Shown here one piece after another: positions 9,027 to 59,104 of a DNA stretch of 59,104 nucleotides. Position numbers and translations under genes: made by a program. The notes beneath the pieces were generated by a model. That model had not been told where the DNA came from, did not search any database, and saw nothing but the letters and a program-made list of their open reading frames with translations. Numbering within the stretch: the stretch's first letter is position 1; every line of letters begins with the position of its first letter. Source of the stretch: a virus; IMG/VR virus record IMGVR_UViG_3300036820_000020, positions 1 through 59,104 of that record; one strand, written 5' to 3'.

Positions 9027-9198
9027 AGCTGAATTGATAGACATTGAGCGCCAGATATTGAAACGATACAGAGATATAAAAGACGAAGACGACGAAGACG
9101 ACGAAGACAACAAAGACAACGAATACGACTATGTGTTTTTATCTGACATGCTGCGTCTGGTAGAGATTATCCGAGATCACAGTATTGCCCTTGCCTGA
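8971..9198 (+). CDS. Small acidic protein with Asp/Glu repeat
   Basis: 75 aa. A strong ribosome-binding site GAGAGGAG lies 6-10 bases before the ATG inside the end of the ERCC4 gene. The central segment is an Asp/Glu/Lys run from GACGAAGAC repeats, between a beta-like N-terminus and an amphipathic helix at the C-terminus. It overlaps the TTG start of the polymerase gene. No family recognised. Confidence 0.65.
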   Translation: MQTQTVKIKTAKTATVIYEAELIDIERQILKRYRDIKDEDDEDDEDNKDNEYDYVFLSDMLRLVEIIRDHSIALA

Positions 9199-12076
9199 TA
9201 TCTATACCTACTTCCGCGATCCCTGTCCGAGTTGTCCAAGGAAATCGAGAGCTATTGGAGGAGACGGTCCGCAACCAGCTCGTATCTTAGCGATTATGGA
9301 GCGTCCCGGCCAGGACGAATCCAGGCACGGCAGAGTCGCCTGCGGCAAGGCCGGCCAGGAACTAGATGACTTGTATCTTCCCCTGGCTGGTCTGGACCGG
9401 TCCGAGATCCGGGTTTGCAACACTGTCCTGTGCGGCGAGCCGAATAATAAGAAACCGACTGGCAAGGAAATAGCCGGATGCGCCCCGTTCCATATCCCGC
9501 GGGAAATTGAACGGACGAATCCGGAAGTCATATTGCTTCTGGGAGCGTCCGCCTGCTCTCTTGTAACGAACGGCAAAGGGATCGATTTAGAAGCGGCGCA
9601 CGGGATACCCCAACCTACTAGCAAAGTTGGGGATCTGTTTGGCTGGCAAGGCGTGGTTGTACCTATGTTTCACCCCGCTCAAGGGTTGCATGAAGGCCGG
9701 TGGATGCAGACGGCCATGGAAGATTGGCGGAGACTAGGTGAGTTCTTTCAATTTGGAGACGACGGCGATCCGGAGATAGAACCGTATGACTATTCACTTG
9801 CTGAAGCCGTGGATATTGCGGGTGACATTGGAGCGTCAAGCAGAATCAGTATCGACACTGAAAGTCACGACGGTAAGCCTTGGTCTATACAATACAATCA
9901 AGCGTCTGGAATGGGCCGTATCGTTCTCGTTAAAGAAGCCGAAGCGCTATACCACTTACAGCGATTGGTGCGAGAAGCGGAGGAAGTGATCTTTCATAAC
10001 GCCTCGTACGACCTCGAAGTCCTACGAAAACTCGATATCCACGTTCGTTGTTACCGTGACACGATGCAAGAGGCTTTTCACTTAGGAAACCTGCCGCAAG
10101 GTCTCAAGCCGCTGGTCTACAGGCTCTTTCGTCACACCATGACTTCGTACAAAGAGACAGTCTGGCCGGCGTCTATCCTAAATCTACAGGAATGGATGTT
10201 CGAAGCGGTCCAGATAGCCGAATCCGACCTGTCGTTTAAAGAGCAGAAGAAGAAAAGCGTCAAGGTTCATAAAGGAGAATTGGAATCTCTTCTGACCAGG
10301 CTGTTGAGACTGGCGCGGCCACATTCGGATTACGATCCGTGGGATAGACTGGACGCTTTCTGGAAAGACCCTTTGAACTCCTGGATGGTATCGCATATGG
10401 AGAACCGGATAGGTAAATACCCTGTCTTAGGTATCGCCAATTGCAAGATGAAAGACGCGATCCGGTATGCTGTCGGAGATGCCGACTGGACAGGCAGAGC
10501 GGCTGTGGAACTGGCACGGCGGCGGCAGACTGCATTTCAGATTTACGATACAGACCGGGACAACCAGGACAACCGGGACAACCGGGACGGCCAAGACGTC
10601 CAGGACACGTTAAATCAATTGAAGCTGTTCGGAGGCGTCACACTTCCAGGCAAGCCCGACCTGGATAACATCCGGCGTCTGGACGCGATGATCATTCCAC
10701 AGTTAAATAGAATGTCTCGGATAGGAATAGGAATAGACGTTCCTTACCTCCAGGATCTCTCCAGCCAATTCGAAAAGGAAATGAAAGACCTGGAGTCTCA
10801 GATCTCTTCTTATATCCCCGCCTGGGCGCTCAATCAATTCTCTTCTCAGGCCGCCGTGATCGAGGAAGAGGAAGGACTAGCTGCTCTGAACGCTTCGAGC
10901 GCGGTACAGATCCGGACATTACTCTTCGATCTGTTGAAAGTCGGGCGCGACCAGAAGCTCAAATCAACTTCCACAGGCAAAGTGTCTACCGGACGAAAGA
11001 ATTTAGACAAGGTGAGAGACGATCACCCGGTCGTCCCACTGATTCTACAGTATCGGGAAAGACAGAAGCTGAAGGAATCGTTTTGTGACTCTTTGCCTGT
11101 ACTGGCAAAGCTTCACCCTGTCTCTAGTTGTTGTCCGATATGCGAACTTCCTCATCGTGTAGCGACTACACGGCTGCACACGGAATTCACGACCACCAGG
11201 GCTATCACTGGCAGGCTGTCCAGCCGCCGTCCCAACCTCCAGCAAATTCCTATCCGGTCCACTCTGGGCTCTCGTATCCGTGCCGCTTTCGTCGCGTCGC
11301 CGGGTACGAAACTGGTATCTGTAGACTTCTCTCAGATGGAAATCAGGGATCTCGCCCATCTTGCCAACGCCTGTTCTATCTTCAAAGTCTACGAGTCCGG
11401 CGGCGATATTCATGTCAACACAGCCGTCAAAGCGTTTGGCCTTAGAGACGCTTCGCAAGTCGATAAATACCGTCACCGCCTGCCCGCCAAACGAACGAAC
11501 TTCAGCATTCAGAACGGCACGACAGAGGAAGGCTTGTACGCTCAGTTGATCGGAGACTACTGGGCGGCTGGCATCACTCCCCCCGATTGGCTTAACAAGG
11601 ACTGGTGCAAGGAATTCATCGCTTCCTGGCACCAGGCCTATCCGGAAGTCCAACCCTACTTTGACACTCAGTATTACCGGGCTCGCCGGTACGGTTTCGT
11701 ATGGGGACCTTGGGGACGGGCAAGATATATACCGCAGATCCGCTCGACGCACTTCTGGAAAGTGGAAGAGGGACTGAGAGAAGCTCAGAACTTCGCTGTC
11801 ACTAATTCTAACGCGGAACAAACGAAACTGGCGATGGCGGAATGCGAGAGCGAGTTTGAGATTGTGAGAGAGAACGGCGTCTATTGCGAGGCGCTATTGT
11901 CTATTCATGACCAGGTGATAACGGAAGTAGACGAAGCATATGCTGATTTCATAGGTTCTCGAATGACTTACATCTTTGAGCATGTGATGGACGACCGGGT
12001 AACTAAGAAACGGATGTGGCGATGTCTGATCAAGGCGGACTGCGATATCCTGGACCGCTGGCACGCCAAGGAATAA
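9185..12076 (+). CDS. Uracil-DNA glycosylase (family 4-like) fused to DNA polymerase I
   Basis: 963 aa, TTG start. Residues 1-185 are a family 4 UDG domain: Fe-S ligands C14, C17, C83, C99, an ERPGQDES loop and MFHPAQG. Residues 215-440 are a DEDDy proofreading exonuclease (D224, E226, D276, Y428/D432). Residues 490-963 are an A-family polymerase with TGRLSSRRPNLQQIP, motif A VDFSQMEIR (D714), O-helix K769/F773 and motif C HDQ (D909). The canonical O-helix Tyr is Asn777 and the HDE Glu is Gln. No 5'-3' flap domain is present. A DNRDN repeat linker near 458-472 joins exo and pol. It is the likely replicative polymerase, and the UDG part may screen for uracil. Confidence 0.88.
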   Translation: MPLPDIYTYFRDPCPSCPRKSRAIGGDGPQPARILAIMERPGQDESRHGRVACGKAGQELDDLYLPLAGLDRSEIRVCNTVLCGEPNNKKPTGKEIAGCAPFHIPREIERTNPEVILLLGASACSLVTNGKGIDLEAAHGIPQPTSKVGDLFGWQGVVVPMFHPAQGLHEGRWMQTAMEDWRRLGEFFQFGDDGDPEIEPYDYSLAEAVDIAGDIGASSRISIDTESHDGKPWSIQYNQASGMGRIVLVKEAEALYHLQRLVREAEEVIFHNASYDLEVLRKLDIHVRCYRDTMQEAFHLGNLPQGLKPLVYRLFRHTMTSYKETVWPASILNLQEWMFEAVQIAESDLSFKEQKKKSVKVHKGELESLLTRLLRLARPHSDYDPWDRLDAFWKDPLNSWMVSHMENRIGKYPVLGIANCKMKDAIRYAVGDADWTGRAAVELARRRQTAFQIYDTDRDNQDNRDNRDGQDVQDTLNQLKLFGGVTLPGKPDLDNIRRLDAMIIPQLNRMSRIGIGIDVPYLQDLSSQFEKEMKDLESQISSYIPAWALNQFSSQAAVIEEEEGLAALNASSAVQIRTLLFDLLKVGRDQKLKSTSTGKVSTGRKNLDKVRDDHPVVPLILQYRERQKLKESFCDSLPVLAKLHPVSSCCPICELPHRVATTRLHTEFTTTRAITGRLSSRRPNLQQIPIRSTLGSRIRAAFVASPGTKLVSVDFSQMEIRDLAHLANACSIFKVYESGGDIHVNTAVKAFGLRDASQVDKYRHRLPAKRTNFSIQNGTTEEGLYAQLIGDYWAAGITPPDWLNKDWCKEFIASWHQAYPEVQPYFDTQYYRARRYGFVWGPWGRARYIPQIRSTHFWKVEEGLREAQNFAVTNSNAEQTKLAMAECESEFEIVRENGVYCEALLSIHDQVITEVDEAYADFIGSRMTYIFEHVMDDRVTKKRMWRCLIKADCDILDRWHAKE
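11158..11170. promoter_or_regulatory. Dispersed palindrome TGTAG-CGA-CTACA (site 2)
   Basis: Within the polymerase gene, encoding V-A-T-T next to a Cys-rich insertion (CCPIC, residues 649-653). Flanked by G and C, so the inverted repeat extends to 6+6 (GTGTAG...CTACAC). Confidence 0.6.
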
Positions 12077-49306: not shown

Positions 49307-49537
49307 ATGGAAAAACGAATTGTAGTCATCGCCGCGGTGAGCCAAGAGCAACTCGAAAACGACGGATGTGATGTCGAGCAGGAATGTGACACCATCGCAC
49401 ACGCCAAGCAGCGCGCCAAGTACTACCTCACCGAGGAGTATATGAACTCAGCGGAATCCACCACCATGCTGGGATACTCCCAGGTAAAGGTGAACGGCGT
49501 AGTTGAGTACGATTTCTTCGGAAAGGGGGTGAAGTGA
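49307..49537 (+). CDS. Small hypothetical protein (leaderless)
   Basis: 76 aa from M-E-K-R-I-V-V-I. A beta strand, an acidic helix (QEQLENDGCDVEQECDTIAHAKQRAKYYLTEEYM) and a C-terminal strand pair (GYSQVKVNGVVEYDFFG) suggest a small alpha/beta fold. The start sits on the predicted transcription start of the upstream promoter, with no room for a ribosome-binding site. It overlaps or abuts the pentapeptide gene. Confidence 0.65.
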   Translation: MEKRIVVIAAVSQEQLENDGCDVEQECDTIAHAKQRAKYYLTEEYMNSAESTTMLGYSQVKVNGVVEYDFFGKGVK

Positions 49538-49539
49538 TC

Positions 49540-50100
49540 ATGAGACTGATTGACACCATTCACCAAGCCGGCAGCGGGACCGGCCTCGACGGAGCCAATC
49601 TCAGTTGGTCTGACCTCCGCAAGGCTCGCTTCAGCGGTGTATGCCTCAGCCAAGCCAATCTTAGCTGGTCCGACCTCCGCGGGACCGATCTCAGCGGGGT
49701 CAATTTACGCGGGGCCAATCTCCGCGGGGCATGCCTCAGCGGGGCCGATCTCCGCGGGGCCGATCTTAGCGGAGCCGACCTCCGCGGGACCGACCTCAGC
49801 GGGGCCAACCTACGCGGAGCCGATCTCAGCGGAGCCGATCTCAGCGGAGCCGACCTCAGCGGGGCCGACCTCAGTTGGTCCGACCTCAGCGGGGCCAACC
49901 TCAGCGGAGCCAACCTCAGCGGAGCCAACCTCAGCGGGGCCGATCTCAGCGCGGCGGACCTCCGCGGGGCCAATCTCAGTTGGTCCAATCTTAGCTGGTC
50001 TGACCTTCGCGGAGCCAATCTCCGCGGATCCAATCTCCACGGCGCATGCCTTAACGGTACCTGTCTCAACGGACTGTTAAACAAAGAGGTACTACTGTGA
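49540..50100 (+). CDS. Pentapeptide-repeat protein
   Basis: 186 aa from ATG (GTG at 49534 is an alternative); GGGGGTG lies at good spacing. More than 25 consecutive pentapeptides of the A(D/N)LSx/A(D/N)LRG type run from about residue 15 to 165, forming a right-handed quadrilateral beta-helix. Tryptophan variants (LSWSDLRG) recur at intervals. Family members such as Qnr/MfpA mimic DNA and bind gyrase, but many have no known target. As an accessory phage gene it could counter host topoisomerase or nucleic-acid-dependent defence; this is inference. Confidence 0.85.
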   Translation: MRLIDTIHQAGSGTGLDGANLSWSDLRKARFSGVCLSQANLSWSDLRGTDLSGVNLRGANLRGACLSGADLRGADLSGADLRGTDLSGANLRGADLSGADLSGADLSGADLSWSDLSGANLSGANLSGANLSGADLSAADLRGANLSWSNLSWSDLRGANLRGSNLHGACLNGTCLNGLLNKEVLL

Positions 50101-55946: not shown

Positions 55947-57275
55947 ATGGCTCAAAGTGATACATTTTACAACGTGCCTATCGCCGCGGCGCCACTAACT
56001 GATTCTGATTCTTCGTCTTATTCTAAATTGAGACCGTTCCTGGTATCTTCCACACGGTCTCCTCTGGCGGACCCTAAAACACCGATCCATAGACTAGCCT
56101 GCGCCATCCAGTCCTACTTATACTTTCCAGATCCAAGTCCGTTATATGCGGTATGTGGGACTGTAATAGCAAATAGTCTCCGTGGTTATCCGGTATGGCT
56201 CATGCTGATCGGACCGCCGGAATCGGGTAAGACGGAACTATTAAAACCGTTATTGGGAATAGACGGCTGCGTCGAGTGCGGGGATATCTCGGGCAAAGGC
56301 GCGTTGCTATCGGGAACGCCGGCCTCCCAACGAACCCAGGATTCTACAGGTGGACTGCTCAACACGATAGACAAGCAGAGAGGCGTCCTGGTCATGCTGG
56401 ACTTTGCCAGGACAGTCCTGGCCTCGGATATGAGGGAGATGAGATCGACCCTCGGAGCGATCGGAATGCTCCATGACCAGCATTACAAAAGATCAATTGG
56501 AGCCGACGGCGGACGGTCTATCACTTTCGATGGCAAGTTAGGCTGGATAGCGGCTTCGACAGACGCTATAGACCACCCGGATAACCACCAGGCTAATTCA
56601 GAAATGGGAGACAGGTGTCTCTATTATCGCTATCCTGTCTCGACCGGGTATCACGAGATATCGAGCGCCTTGGATAATCCCGACAGCAGTTATAAGACTC
56701 AAAAGATCCAAGGGCTATTCAAGACCTGGCAAGAAGAGATCGGGTTGGATTGGGAGCATCTGGCGCCCCCGCGGACGCTTGAAGAAGATGAGAAACGGCG
56801 GGTATCGGCGCTCGCGCAGTTTTGCGCGAGAGCCAGGTCAGCCGTTTACCGGGATCGCTGGAGACAGGAGGTAGCGGGGATATCAAGGGCCGCGCTGGGG
56901 CCGAGAATAGCTAACTCGCTGGCTCAATTGCTTCGCGGCATGGAACACATCGGATGTACGCAAGAGGAAATCTGGAAGGTGTTGTGTCACACCGCTATAG
57001 ATTCTATACCCGCTGTCAGAGCGCACATTCTAAAACTGTTACAGGAAGACAGACAGACATTGCAGGAAGTCGCCGACAAGATACAGATAGCATTGCCCGC
57101 GGCCAAAAGAACGATAGAGGATTTGCGTATCCACGACCTTGTAGCGCCTACACGGCCTAACGGTCAGTCTGATGGTCAGTCTGATGGTCAGACGGGCGGT
57201 CAGACCTGGACACTCAGTGAGAAAGGGAAAGGCCTGTTGGATTTTGGATGGCAGGGATCTAAAATAGAGACTTGA
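55947..57275 (+). CDS. P-loop ATPase with winged-helix C-terminus (replication initiator/helicase candidate)
   Basis: 442 aa from ATG at 55947. Walker A LIGPPESGKT at 88-96 and VLVMLDFAR (D152) as Walker B. Sensor-like DGKLGWIAASTDAID follows, as in helicase-type AAA+ proteins. Residues 360-420 (HILKLLQEDRQTLQEVADKIQIALPAAKRTIEDLRIHDLV) form a winged-helix domain. A Gln/Asp/Gly repeat (GQSDGQSDGQTGGQ) lies in the tail. Directly after the ParB-like gene, so a replication initiator or helicase is the best guess. Contains palindrome site 10. Confidence 0.7.
   Translation: MAQSDTFYNVPIAAAPLTDSDSSSYSKLRPFLVSSTRSPLADPKTPIHRLACAIQSYLYFPDPSPLYAVCGTVIANSLRGYPVWLMLIGPPESGKTELLKPLLGIDGCVECGDISGKGALLSGTPASQRTQDSTGGLLNTIDKQRGVLVMLDFARTVLASDMREMRSTLGAIGMLHDQHYKRSIGADGGRSITFDGKLGWIAASTDAIDHPDNHQANSEMGDRCLYYRYPVSTGYHEISSALDNPDSSYKTQKIQGLFKTWQEEIGLDWEHLAPPRTLEEDEKRRVSALAQFCARARSAVYRDRWRQEVAGISRAALGPRIANSLAQLLRGMEHIGCTQEEIWKVLCHTAIDSIPAVRAHILKLLQEDRQTLQEVADKIQIALPAAKRTIEDLRIHDLVAPTRPNGQSDGQSDGQTGGQTWTLSEKGKGLLDFGWQGSKIET
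57140..57152. promoter_or_regulatory. Dispersed palindrome TGTAG-CGC-CTACA (site 10)
   Basis: In the winged-helix domain of the ATPase gene, encoding V-A-P-T, about 130 bases upstream of the promoter of the small-repeat gene array. Confidence 0.65.
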
Positions 57276-57300
57276 CAAATATAGATTTAACAGGTATTGT
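57272..57300 (+). promoter_or_regulatory. Promoter TTGACA-N17-TATTGT of the repeat-gene array
   Basis: Perfect -35 overlapping the stop of the ATPase gene; initiation is expected at about 57307, directly on the GTG at 57308. Confidence 0.7.
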
Positions 57301-57307
57301 TGAACAC

Positions 57308-57562
57308 GTGATTGCGGCAATAGTTCAAGCAGGATATCAATGGTCGTGGTCGTGGTCGCGGTCGGGGTCGCGGTCGGGGTCGTGGTCGTGGCCGGGGTCT
57401 CGGTCGTTGTCTTGGTTGTGGTCGCGGTCGGGATCGGGGTCAGGGTCGCGGTCGCAGTCGTGGTCGTGGTCGTGGTCGGGGTCGGAGTCACGGTCGTGGT
57501 CGTGGTCAGGGTCGGGTTCGAAGTTAAGCAAAGGAAAACAAAAATGGCAAACGAAAACGTAA
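57308..57562 (+). CDS. Ser-Arg/Trp/Gly repeat protein, variant N-terminus (unit 0)
   Basis: 84 aa from GTG (a TTG at 57272 would add 12 residues but coincides with the -35 box). M-I-A-A-I-V-Q-A-G-Y-Q forms a short hydrophobic head. Then (Ser-X)n, X = W, R or G, runs for about 55 residues and ends in a basic KLSKGKQKWQTKT. The tail lies on the TCG-NGG hexamer array at 57342-57519. The head is unlike those of units 1-5, so only the tail is shared. Confidence 0.45.
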   Translation: MIAAIVQAGYQWSWSWSRSGSRSGSWSWPGSRSLSWLWSRSGSGSGSRSQSWSWSWSGSESRSWSWSGSGSKLSKGKQKWQTKT

Positions 57563-57828
57563 AAACAAGCTTTTGGATCGTGGGCAAATCCTATCTGATC
57601 CGGACTGTAACAATGATCGACACGGGTATCCTCGTCTCGATAGACGAACACGAAATAGTCTTATCCGATGCCGCTTGGATTGCCGACACTGGCAGATTTA
57701 GCGCCGCTCTGCACTCCTCTGACTTTCTCGAAGTCGAACCGTTCCCGGACGGGACGCGGGTGGCTATTGGCCGCGGAAGTGTTATTGACGCAGTACAGAT
57801 TCCCACGGCGCCGCGAAAATTAAAATGA
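57544..57828 (+). CDS. Conserved phage small protein (DUF6948-like)
   Basis: 94 aa. MANENVKTSFWIVGKSYLIRTVTMIDTGILVSIDEHEIVLSDAAWIADTGRFS with LEVEPFPDGTRVAIGRGSVIDA resembles a family of short beta-barrel phage proteins (tGrl....e.vL.DAaWiaDtGRf). AAGGAAAA is the ribosome-binding site, within the end of unit 0 in another frame. The stop overlaps the start of unit 1 (ATGA). Function in the family is unknown. Confidence 0.7.
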   Translation: MANENVKTSFWIVGKSYLIRTVTMIDTGILVSIDEHEIVLSDAAWIADTGRFSAALHSSDFLEVEPFPDGTRVAIGRGSVIDAVQIPTAPRKLK

Positions 57829-57890
57829 ACGCTGCCGTCTTACTGACTGTATACGAACAGTCGAGTTGGTCGCGATCGCGGTTGGGTTAG
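57825..57890 (+). pseudogene. Repeat-tail small gene, unit 1 (amber-interrupted)
   Basis: M-N-A-A-V-L-L-T-V-Y-E-Q-S-S-W-S-R-S-R-L-G, then TAG at 57888-57890. The frame is otherwise open through the whole array to SNW-stop near 58035. Comparison with unit 4 (TTG-GGG-ACG-CGG versus TTG-GGT-TAG-CGG) shows the amber is the only in-frame defect. It may be a dead copy or one subject to suppression. Confidence 0.5.
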
Positions 57891-58041
57891 CGGTCGTGGT
57901 CGCGGTCGTGGTCGCGGTCGGGGTGGTGGGTGTGGTCGGGGTCGCGGTCTGGGTCGCGGTCGGGGTTGGGGTCGCGGTCTGGGTCGCGGTCGGGGTTGGG
58001 GTCGCGGTCACAGTCGGGGTCACGGTCGAATTGGTGAGGTC

Positions 58042-58296
58042 ATGGCCACTGTCTTACTAAGCATATACGAACAGTCGAGTTGGTCGGGGTCGAGGTCGGG
58101 GTCGGGGGCGGGGTCGGGGTCGCGGGCGGGGTCGCGGTCGCGGTCGCGGGCGGGGTCGCGGTCGAGGTCGTGGTCGTGGTCATGGTTGTGGTCACGGTCG
58201 TGGTCGTGGTCGCGGTCGGGGTCGTGGTCACGGTCGGGGTCGCGGTCGGGGTCGCGGTCGCGGTCGGGGTCGTGGTCGGGGTCGCGGTCAAATTAG
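58042..58296 (+). CDS. Repeat-tail small protein, unit 2
   Basis: 84 aa: M-A-T-V-L-L-S-I-Y-E-Q-S-S-W-S then (Ser-X)n. The start lies four bases after an in-frame TGA, with GGTGAGG as ribosome-binding site. The head is 80-90 % identical to units 3-5, while the tail order of R, W and G differs. Very basic and Ser-rich, certainly disordered. Confidence 0.5.
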   Translation: MATVLLSIYEQSSWSGSRSGSGAGSGSRAGSRSRSRAGSRSRSWSWSWLWSRSWSWSRSGSWSRSGSRSGSRSRSGSWSGSRSN

Positions 58297-58347
58297 TAAG
58301 GTCGCGGTCGGGGTCGTGGTCGGGGTCACGGTCGAATTGGTGAGGTC

Positions 58348-58536
58348 ATGGCCGTTGTCTTACTAATCGTGTACGAACAGTCGAGTTGGTCGGGGTCGCG
58401 GTCAGGGTCTCGGTGGCGTTCGCGGTCGGGGCCGCGGCCGTGGCCGTGGTCTGGGTCGCGGTCACGGTTGTGGCCGTGGCCGTGGTCGCGGTCGGGGTCG
58501 TGGTCACGGTCGCGGTCGGGGTCGCTCGGAAACTGA
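58348..58536 (+). CDS. Repeat-tail small protein, unit 3
   Basis: 62 aa: M-A-V-V-L-L-I-V-Y-E-Q-S-S-W-S, identical in its first 20 residues to unit 5, then a diverged tail including Pro-Trp steps (CCG-TGG) and ending SGSLGN. The stop is one base before the unit 4 start. Confidence 0.5.
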   Translation: MAVVLLIVYEQSSWSGSRSGSRWRSRSGPRPWPWSGSRSRLWPWPWSRSGSWSRSRSGSLGN

Positions 58537-58537
58537 G

Positions 58538-58801
58538 ATGAACGCCGTATTACTAGCCCTATACGAACAGTCGAGTTGGTCGCGATCGCGGTTGGGGACG
58601 CGGTCGTGGTCGTGGTTGTGGTCGTGGTCGCGGTTGCGGCCTTGGCCGGGGTCGTGTTCGCGGTCGGGACCGGGGTTATGGTCGTGGTCGTGGGTGGGGT
58701 CGGGGCCGCGGTCTGGGTCGTGGTCGGGGTCGTGTTCGCTGTCGCGGTCGGGGTCTCGGTCGCGGTCGGGGTCGTGGTCGGGGTCACGGTCGAATTGGTG
58801 A
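58538..58801 (+). CDS. Repeat-tail small protein, unit 4
   Basis: 87 aa: M-N-A-V-L-L-A-L-Y-E-Q-S-S-W-S-R-S-R-L-G. Closest to unit 1 in its head. The tail includes Cys and Leu steps from point changes and ends SRSNW, the same ending as the readthrough form of unit 1. Confidence 0.5.
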   Translation: MNAVLLALYEQSSWSRSRLGTRSWSWLWSWSRLRPWPGSCSRSGPGLWSWSWVGSGPRSGSWSGSCSLSRSGSRSRSGSWSGSRSNW

Positions 58802-58805
58802 GGTC

Positions 58806-59030
58806 ATGGCCGTTGTCTTACTAATCGTGTACGAACAGTCGAGTTGGTCGGGGTCGCGGTCAGGGTCGTGGGTGCGGTCGTGGTCGTGGGTGCGGTCGTG
58901 GTCGCGGTCGCGGTCGCGGTCGTGGTCGTGGTTGTGGCCGTGGCCGCGGTCGCGGTCGGGGTCGTGGTCACGGTCGCGGTCGGGGTCGCGGTCACAGTCG
59001 GGGTCGGAGTCAAGGTCAACAATTAAATGA
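58806..59030 (+). CDS. Repeat-tail small protein, unit 5
   Basis: 74 aa; GGTGAGG before the ATG. The head equals unit 3. The tail ends SRSTIK, and the TGA stop overlaps the helicase start (ATGA; position 50 in the left copy). This fixes the reading strand of the array as part of the helicase operon. Confidence 0.55.
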   Translation: MAVVLLIVYEQSSWSGSRSGSWVRSWSWVRSWSRSRSRSWSWLWPWPRSRSGSWSRSRSGSRSQSGSESRSTIK

Positions 59031-59104
59031 GCGCAATCTTTACATCCTTGTTTCCCTCCGATCTCGGCTTGCCGCCTAAATTCACGTCTTATCGGCGCCA
59101 TCAA
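58978..59104. repeat. Direct terminal repeat, right copy
   Basis: Identical to 1-127. The partial helicase start at 59027-59104 is the same gene as at 50, not a second copy. Confidence 0.95.

Follow-up and report, generated by a model that had tools for sequence, protein, structure and literature searches.

Tandem genes for Ser-[Gly/Arg/Trp] repeat proteins and a predicted Sm-like partner in a circular virus genome and in other virus contigs

The window, that is, the whole stretch of 59,104 nucleotides analysed here, is a circular virus genome from IMG/VR (record IMGVR_UViG_3300036820_000020) which carries a 127-bp terminal direct repeat. Close to its 3' end is a series of small genes, each reading as a short head followed by a tail in which Ser alternates with Gly, Arg or Trp (here Ser-X, with X being the varying residue), along with one gene of ordinary composition and the beginning of a helicase gene:

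57272 to 57300, plus strand: promoter-like site, TTGACA-17-TATTGT, 5' of unit 0 (consensus scan)
57308 to 57562, plus strand: unit 0, Ser-X protein, GTG start (sequence, translation)
57544 to 57828, plus strand: predicted Sm-like protein, 94 aa, class 1 partner (alignment, AlphaFold2, Foldseek)
57825 to 57890, plus strand: unit 1, head MNAAVLLTVYEQSSWSRSRLG, interrupted by TAG (sequence)
57891 to 58037, plus strand: Ser-X remainder of unit 1, 3' of the TAG and in frame (stop-to-stop ORF, RSWSRSWSRSGWWVWSGS..)
58042 to 58296, plus strand: unit 2, 84 aa, MATVLLSIYEQSSWSGSRSGS.. (ORF list, charge, composition)
58297 to 58347, plus strand: array remnant lacking a head, between units 2 and 3 (hexamer listing)
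58348 to 58536, plus strand: unit 3, 62 aa, MAVVLLIVYEQSSWSGSRSGS.. (ORF list, charge, composition)
58538 to 58801, plus strand: unit 4, 87 aa, MNAVLLALYEQSSWSRSRLG.. (ORF list, charge, composition)
58806 to 59030, plus strand: unit 5, 74 aa, MAVVLLIVYEQSSWSGSRSGS.. (ORF list, charge, composition)
59027 to 59104, plus strand: start of an SF2/XPD-type helicase, the rest of which lies at 50 to 1663 via the circular wrap

The initial annotation of this DNA described five heads of the form M-x-x-V-L-L-x-x-Y-E-Q-S-S-W-S, and these indeed are found, starting at 57825, 58042, 58348, 58538 and 58806 (MNAAVLLTVYEQSSWS, MATVLLSIYEQSSWS, MAVVLLIVYEQSSWS, twice, and MNAVLLALYEQSSWS), with each entering a Ser-X tail. 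The additional unit which it described as possessing another head is unit 0, whose head, MIAAIVQAGYQWS (starting MIAAIVQAGYQWSWSWSRSGS..), fits a family consensus derived from relatives, MNAAVLRTGFDR, and whose tail contains 13 Trp and terminates with KLSKGKQKWQTKT. Though all five YEQSSWS-type units are present, an in-frame TAG at 57888-57890 ends unit 1 after 21 codons, leaving four full-length units out of five. Past that TAG the unit 1 tail is open up to 58037, as could reflect either decay or readthrough. Similarly, the head-to-tail series does consist of six plus-strand units, but the ordinary gene found between units 0 and 1 (57544-57828) had been overlooked; at AATGA the stop of that gene and the unit 1 start overlap. 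Differences among heads, supposed to be mostly synonymous, turn out not to be, with pairwise codon differences within the window instead consisting of 10 synonymous and 30 nonsynonymous changes. The promoter that had been called a consensus one exists, as a 10/12 match to consensus, with 0.5 such sites expected in shuffles, but it is weak evidence. The series does run into the helicase as had been indicated, with the unit 5 stop overlapping the helicase ATG (59027, equivalent to position 50 of the circular genome) and the gene continuing across the circular join. This helicase was assigned via Pfam Helicase_C_2/ResIII and PHROG 2488, and a search found no close relatives of it.

At the level of DNA the tails consist of a repeated hexamer, GGTCGN, with positions 1 to 5 near constant and the sixth position varying (entropy of 1.75 bits vs 0.3-0.8 bits). 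Triplets of this unit, counted as overlapping matches, number 39 on one strand of the window and 0 on the other, which is far beyond chance. The repeat, however it is read, contains zero stops in the six frames. Open frames over the tails thus are no proof of coding, and gene callers can be misled by them. Evidence for the coding of Ser-X tails was drawn, therefore, from relatives rather than from open frames. A DNA-pattern scan of other virus contigs turned up at least 120 stretches with such arrays, the other frames being open there too. A head matrix (PSSM) was built from the neighbour-seeded set and then scored on arrays which had been found by DNA alone. Heads were matched in 23 of the 81 listed GGTCGN arrays in the Ser-X frame, versus 0 of 81 in the other five. 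The alternative frames, i.e., GR, RP, Val-X, Thr-X and Asp-X, were rejected, as heads are absent from every one. The opposite-strand Thr-Pro/Ala frame, whose conservation the initial annotation had set against its own reading, likewise is not conserved. The exact window head, used as a DNA query, had no match in viral contigs, and a search of plasmids found none.

Relatives of the 94-aa protein were located in 79 virus loci. In nearly all of these the stop of the Sm-like gene overlaps or abuts a small ORF which consists of the head MNAAxLRxG[FY][DE]xS followed by a Ser-[Gly/Arg/Trp] tail. With duplicates and cut contigs left out, a Ser-X ORF is found directly 3' in 64 of 67 Sm-seeded loci. Among the three exceptions are L129, the tail of which is shortened, and L134, which is without a standard start codon, though both still display head and tail. 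The L134 tail gene (at ~3254), with its perfect head, in fact seems to start with ATA rather than with ATG or GTG (INAAILRAGYGKSRSWS). Pooling all sets, the Sm-like gene is followed by a Ser-X ORF in 213 of 226 cases, and the commonest arrangement is an overlap of the two genes (116/157 loci of class 1 and 29/69 of class 2, the classes being those of the Sm-like protein as described below). Starting from the arrays instead, same-strand Sm-like ORFs were found no more than 600 nt upstream in 70/89 (TCG), 57/101 (TCT), 25/103 (AGC) and 6/23 (TCC) loci, named by Ser codon, counts which cover the arrays listed, in sets of at most 120, for loci that are not independent by descent. For a control hexamer, GCTGGN, the equivalent count is 0 of 90 listed loci, this being an imperfect control since some uniform AGCTGG arrays are common to it and to the AGC set. 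Judged by these comparisons across viruses, the Ser-X tails are real genes, plus-strand and tandem copies of a virus gene. That is, the plus-strand coding which had been proposed holds both from the head-plus-tail ORFs that follow Sm-like relatives in other viruses, using four different Ser codons, and from the confinement of head matches in array-seeded loci to the Ser-X frame.

Median values for the 203 complete Ser-X proteins are a length of 68, a net charge of +10, 8 Trp and 1 acidic residue. The earlier reading of the products as disordered, basic, RS/RG/W peptides gains support from relatives. Three of the window proteins when compared with Pfam matched 0 families. Ser is written as TCG, TCA, TCT or AGC in different viruses and yet the Ser-[GRW] pattern persists, and as going from TCN to AGC requires two changes, it is the protein pattern rather than the DNA which is shared. 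The Ser codon is uniform within an array (mean of 95%) and tracks genome GC (Kruskal p=3.5e-6). Could the arrays nevertheless be selfish or neutral hexanucleotide microsatellites, without function and tolerated at the ends of small genes? The freedom of GGTCGN from stops in any frame would be consistent with this, as would the existence of homogeneous arrays (SWSWSW, SGSGSG) that lack an Sm neighbour. A non-coding microsatellite, or instead a DNA-binding array, was rejected because Ser-[GRW] is maintained whichever of four Ser codons is used and because heads are frame-specific. With a W:R:G balance in the tails of 0.31:0.37:0.32, and with nearly every Sm-like gene but none of the control hexamer loci possessing the association, the microsatellite explanation is largely refuted, and we consider it highly improbable.

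Over 297 arrays the X residues follow an almost random order in which identical neighbours are slightly avoided (lag 1, -0.028 ± 0.006), and a higher-order repeat structure of X was rejected for that reason. In two close relatives (L156 and L159), 91-95% of flanking DNA is shared and yet X orders differ. Shuffled order is as expected if composition is selected while repeats are constantly copied and lost. Changes in codons within arrays display no synonymous excess (odds ratio of 0.83), for which reason purifying selection inside arrays was rejected. That is, with synonymous and nonsynonymous changes about equally frequent, individual residues are not visibly constrained.

Codons for Arg, Gly and Trp are nearly always NGG, including in viruses of 33% GC, and 249 of 287 arrays use one Arg codon only (CGG or AGG). 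That choice is mostly CGG with TCG but AGG with TCT or AGC, where both would be expected if the varying base mutated freely. This codon bias raises an alternative in which function resides in RNA, with the mRNA repeat, having GG every six bases, acting as a ligand or structure (e.g., a two-layer G-quadruplex) to which the Sm-like protein binds in an autoregulatory manner, and with the peptide being secondary. Such an explanation would be in keeping with the NGG codons, with RNA binding by Sm-like proteins, which is established for the family, and with the missing synonymous excess. It does not readily accommodate the other codon always being Ser, as TCG, TCA, TCT and AGC share no RNA motif. 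Nor does it readily accommodate the in-frame head and start which precede the tail and which differ by Sm class, or the different repeat (GGC plus TAC/GAC/TCC) of a parallel gene pair considered below, and an RNA-level function on balance seems unlikely. As a separate observation, the Ser codon TCC is almost absent from arrays, with 25 stretches in the whole collection (L557-L581), and AGT also is rare. Folding is much stronger for a generic (TCCNGG)n repeat, at -0.75 kcal/mol per nt, than for the others, at -0.15 to -0.46, and this may be why TCC is rare.

The sequence of the window's Sm-like protein is SFWIVGKSYLIRTVTMIDTG..DAAWIADTGRF..IGRGSVIDAV. A 52-sequence alignment of its relatives served as AlphaFold2 input, yielding a model with mean pLDDT of 93.6. 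The best 50 PDB matches by Foldseek to this class 1 model are essentially all entries for Sm, LSm or SmAP proteins, or for complexes which include such proteins, with a probability of 1.00 and TM by target of up to 0.75, though with a best E of only ~2e-3. A second class, found via the arrays (MKKIVxVxEVEGEGLEALLG..NYIYTGKLVGVN..IVYETG..AIESFG), was modelled with a pLDDT of 87.8 and gave nearly the same list of Sm/LSm matches (probability of 1.00, with TM by target reaching 0.83). The two classes are homologous (hhalign probability of 96.6%, E of 5e-10). Searches of Pfam, NCBIfam, PHROGs and PDB sequences gave neither class a profile match to a curated Sm, LSm or Hfq family or to a solved chain of that kind, and the neighbour is therefore called Sm-like by fold only. 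From its models it is confidently predicted to be an Sm-type small beta barrel. By extension from its superfamily the protein would bind RNA, and probably it forms a ring able to bind RNA or ssDNA, though the models are those of monomers.

Heads differ with the class of Sm-like neighbour. Those of the MNxAxLRxG type are seen in 96 of 157 class 1 loci versus 0 of 69 class 2 loci, whereas basic heads with a K motif (KQK[YW]RS-type) are seen in 43 of 69 class 2 loci versus 4 of 157 of class 1 (p=2e-23). As head type follows Sm type, docking of the head on the Sm-like protein is probable, though the association could represent co-inheritance of neighbours. Natural fusion of Sm-like protein and Ser-X tail was considered as a proof of interaction but was dropped, with none of 281 Sm-like ORFs being so fused. 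Tandem copies with constant head and variable tail are found in other viruses as well (L438, L477, L184, L479, L489, L012 and L069). The largest such family seen, in L438, consists of 13 Ser-X copies with head MITKRTKWRR over ~3.5 kb, while L477 has 7 copies with head MIKKSIYKRNIW.

The closest virus fold match to the window's Sm-like protein is a DUF6948 protein (PF22253). In seven phage records encoding DUF6948 (L582-L588, i.e., MW202898, MT835900, MT192033, EU876853, OP748251, PP738966 and MT836871, among which are Iodobacter phage PhiPLPE, Chlorobiaceae phage CV-1-33, Pectobacterium phage Abuela and Vibrio phage IKEMa6-1), a little before the stop of that gene an ATG opens an ORF in which Gly alternates with mainly Ser, Asp or Tyr, written as GGC plus TAC/GAC/TCC with mostly one codon per residue. 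DUF6948 was rejected as a sequence homologue of the Sm-like classes, the profile probability being only 4-5%. The pair was kept instead as a parallel in predicted fold and in organisation. Alike are the small barrel, matching the Sm-like partner by predicted fold, the overlapping dipeptide-repeat ORF, and the combining of a constant spacer with neutral, charged and aromatic residues. Unlike are the charge, which is opposite, and the spacer, which is Gly rather than Ser. The Gly-[Ser/Asp/Tyr] pair can be viewed as an acidic mirror of Ser-[Gly/Arg/Trp], and one found in phages that are cultured and whose hosts are known. A short Gly-X tract runs in frame into a longer domain, similar in the two cases (IK[ST]FN...), in L583 and L588, both of them phage contigs from human faeces.

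What might such a pair do? Each unit of the array would supply a short, basic and disordered protein, with a head of ~12 residues and a tail in which every other residue is Ser and the rest Gly, Arg or Trp, working with the Sm-like protein of the same operon. The Sm-like ring probably binds RNA or ssDNA, with the Ser-X head probably docking onto that ring. Stickiness then would come from Arg and Trp and spacing from Ser and Gly, resulting in many weak, low-specificity contacts both with nucleic acid and among tails. The tail, that is, may gather or condense nucleic acid of the phage, much as would a disordered Hfq or Sm tail that has become detached. Tandem copies would increase dose, and were composition rather than order to count, then fast array turnover would follow. 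We place at roughly even chances this explanation, i.e., that a disordered, aromatic and charged protein along with an Sm-like ring binds and condenses phage RNA or ssDNA. Its nucleic-acid component is strengthened by how near-obligate the Sm-like neighbour is. The top 25 families of recognised neighbour genes are mainly primase, helicase, terminase and recombination genes, which, along with the helicase and polymerase of the window, would suit involvement in replication or in early RNA handling.

That early-gene neighbourhood, in combination with tandem dosage and a charge and Trp content resembling those of Trp/Arg-rich antimicrobial peptides, could point instead to host-directed cationic peptides which disrupt membranes or are toxic to some host process, with the Sm-like protein regulating mRNA or protecting the producer. 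Yet the alternating Ser, from composition, should keep tails hydrophilic, the acidic version beside DUF6948 would not be membrane-active, and the coupling with an Sm-like gene, near-obligate as it is, goes unexplained, so that this too appears improbable. Constant heads with variable tails in tandem copies furthermore had suggested ribosomally made peptides, with the head a leader and the tail a modified core. This leader-plus-core idea has found no support, as no peptide-modifying or export enzyme stood out among the top 25 neighbour families listed, where a rare enzyme might not appear, and as the partner is, by fold, Sm-like; it is the least credible of the explanations considered.

Eukaryotic SmB, SmD1 and SmD3 possess RG-rich tails. 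RS domains of SR proteins, for their part, are Ser-Arg dipeptide repeats which are RNA-associated, are phosphorylated in eukaryotes, are fused to RRMs and lack Trp; the virus tails are like these in their Ser-Arg dipeptides but are unlike them in being Ser-[Gly/Arg/Trp] and in standing alone after a short head. The pairing of an Sm-fold protein, or of an Sm-associated body, with an Arg/Gly-rich disordered chain is common to the viruses, to SmB/SmD1/SmD3 and to coilin, but in the latter the chains are fused or the proteins unrelated, and the composition is RG instead of Ser-[Gly/Arg/Trp]. Neither those tails nor coilin showed a relation in sequence to the virus tails. An RG/Trp peptide from coilin condenses with RNA (PMC10881997). 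With Hfq, a disordered C-terminal tail tunes an Sm core (PMC5606850). Proposed here is similarly an Sm fold with a disordered tail tuning nucleic-acid binding, though the Hfq tail is fused, acidic at its tip and not dipeptide, whereas the virus tail is a separate, duplicated and basic gene. Sm ribonucleoproteins of Borgs have a fast-evolving disordered region made of tandem repeats, present as an N-terminal fusion with units of 4-17 aa and in only 5 of 19 (PMC9879509). These thus also combine an extrachromosomal element, an Sm protein and a repeat-made disordered region, but the elements are archaeal and giant and the repeat is fused, which the viral Ser-X is not (0/281). Within a survey of low-complexity regions of prokaryotes and phages, aromatic residues and Arg were strongly under-represented (PMC6821194), a trend to which the Ser-X proteins are opposite.

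The gene pair is common to hundreds of diverse virus contigs, with neither half in its Ser-X form present in the family libraries used, and no paper describing it was found in the open-access literature. It may be that this is an undescribed module of two genes, widespread among phages, a small Sm-like barrel and a separate, three-letter dipeptide disordered protein, existing in basic and acidic forms, selected for composition while order is reshuffled, and building nucleoprotein condensates during infection. This broader proposal we hold more tentatively than nucleic-acid condensation as such, leaning somewhat against it. If true, bacterial viruses would have in it a natural analogue to the minimal sticker-and-spacer proteins, in copies varying in order, length and charge, and the organisation of phage RNA or DNA by Sm-like condensates would become a testable question.

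Beyond viruses, a scan of 84,980 cellular genomes with two peptide patterns yielded only 6 loci, each in a MAG of a different, unrelated lineage. Contigs of 8-40 kb carry five of the loci and a contig of 649 kb the sixth. Elsewhere in the window, positions 9185-12076 encode a Family A DNA polymerase that has a uracil-DNA glycosylase domain at its N terminus, and at 49534-50100 an array of a 15-bp unit (CCGACCTCAGCGGGG) reads as a pentapeptide-repeat protein (A-D-L-S-G).
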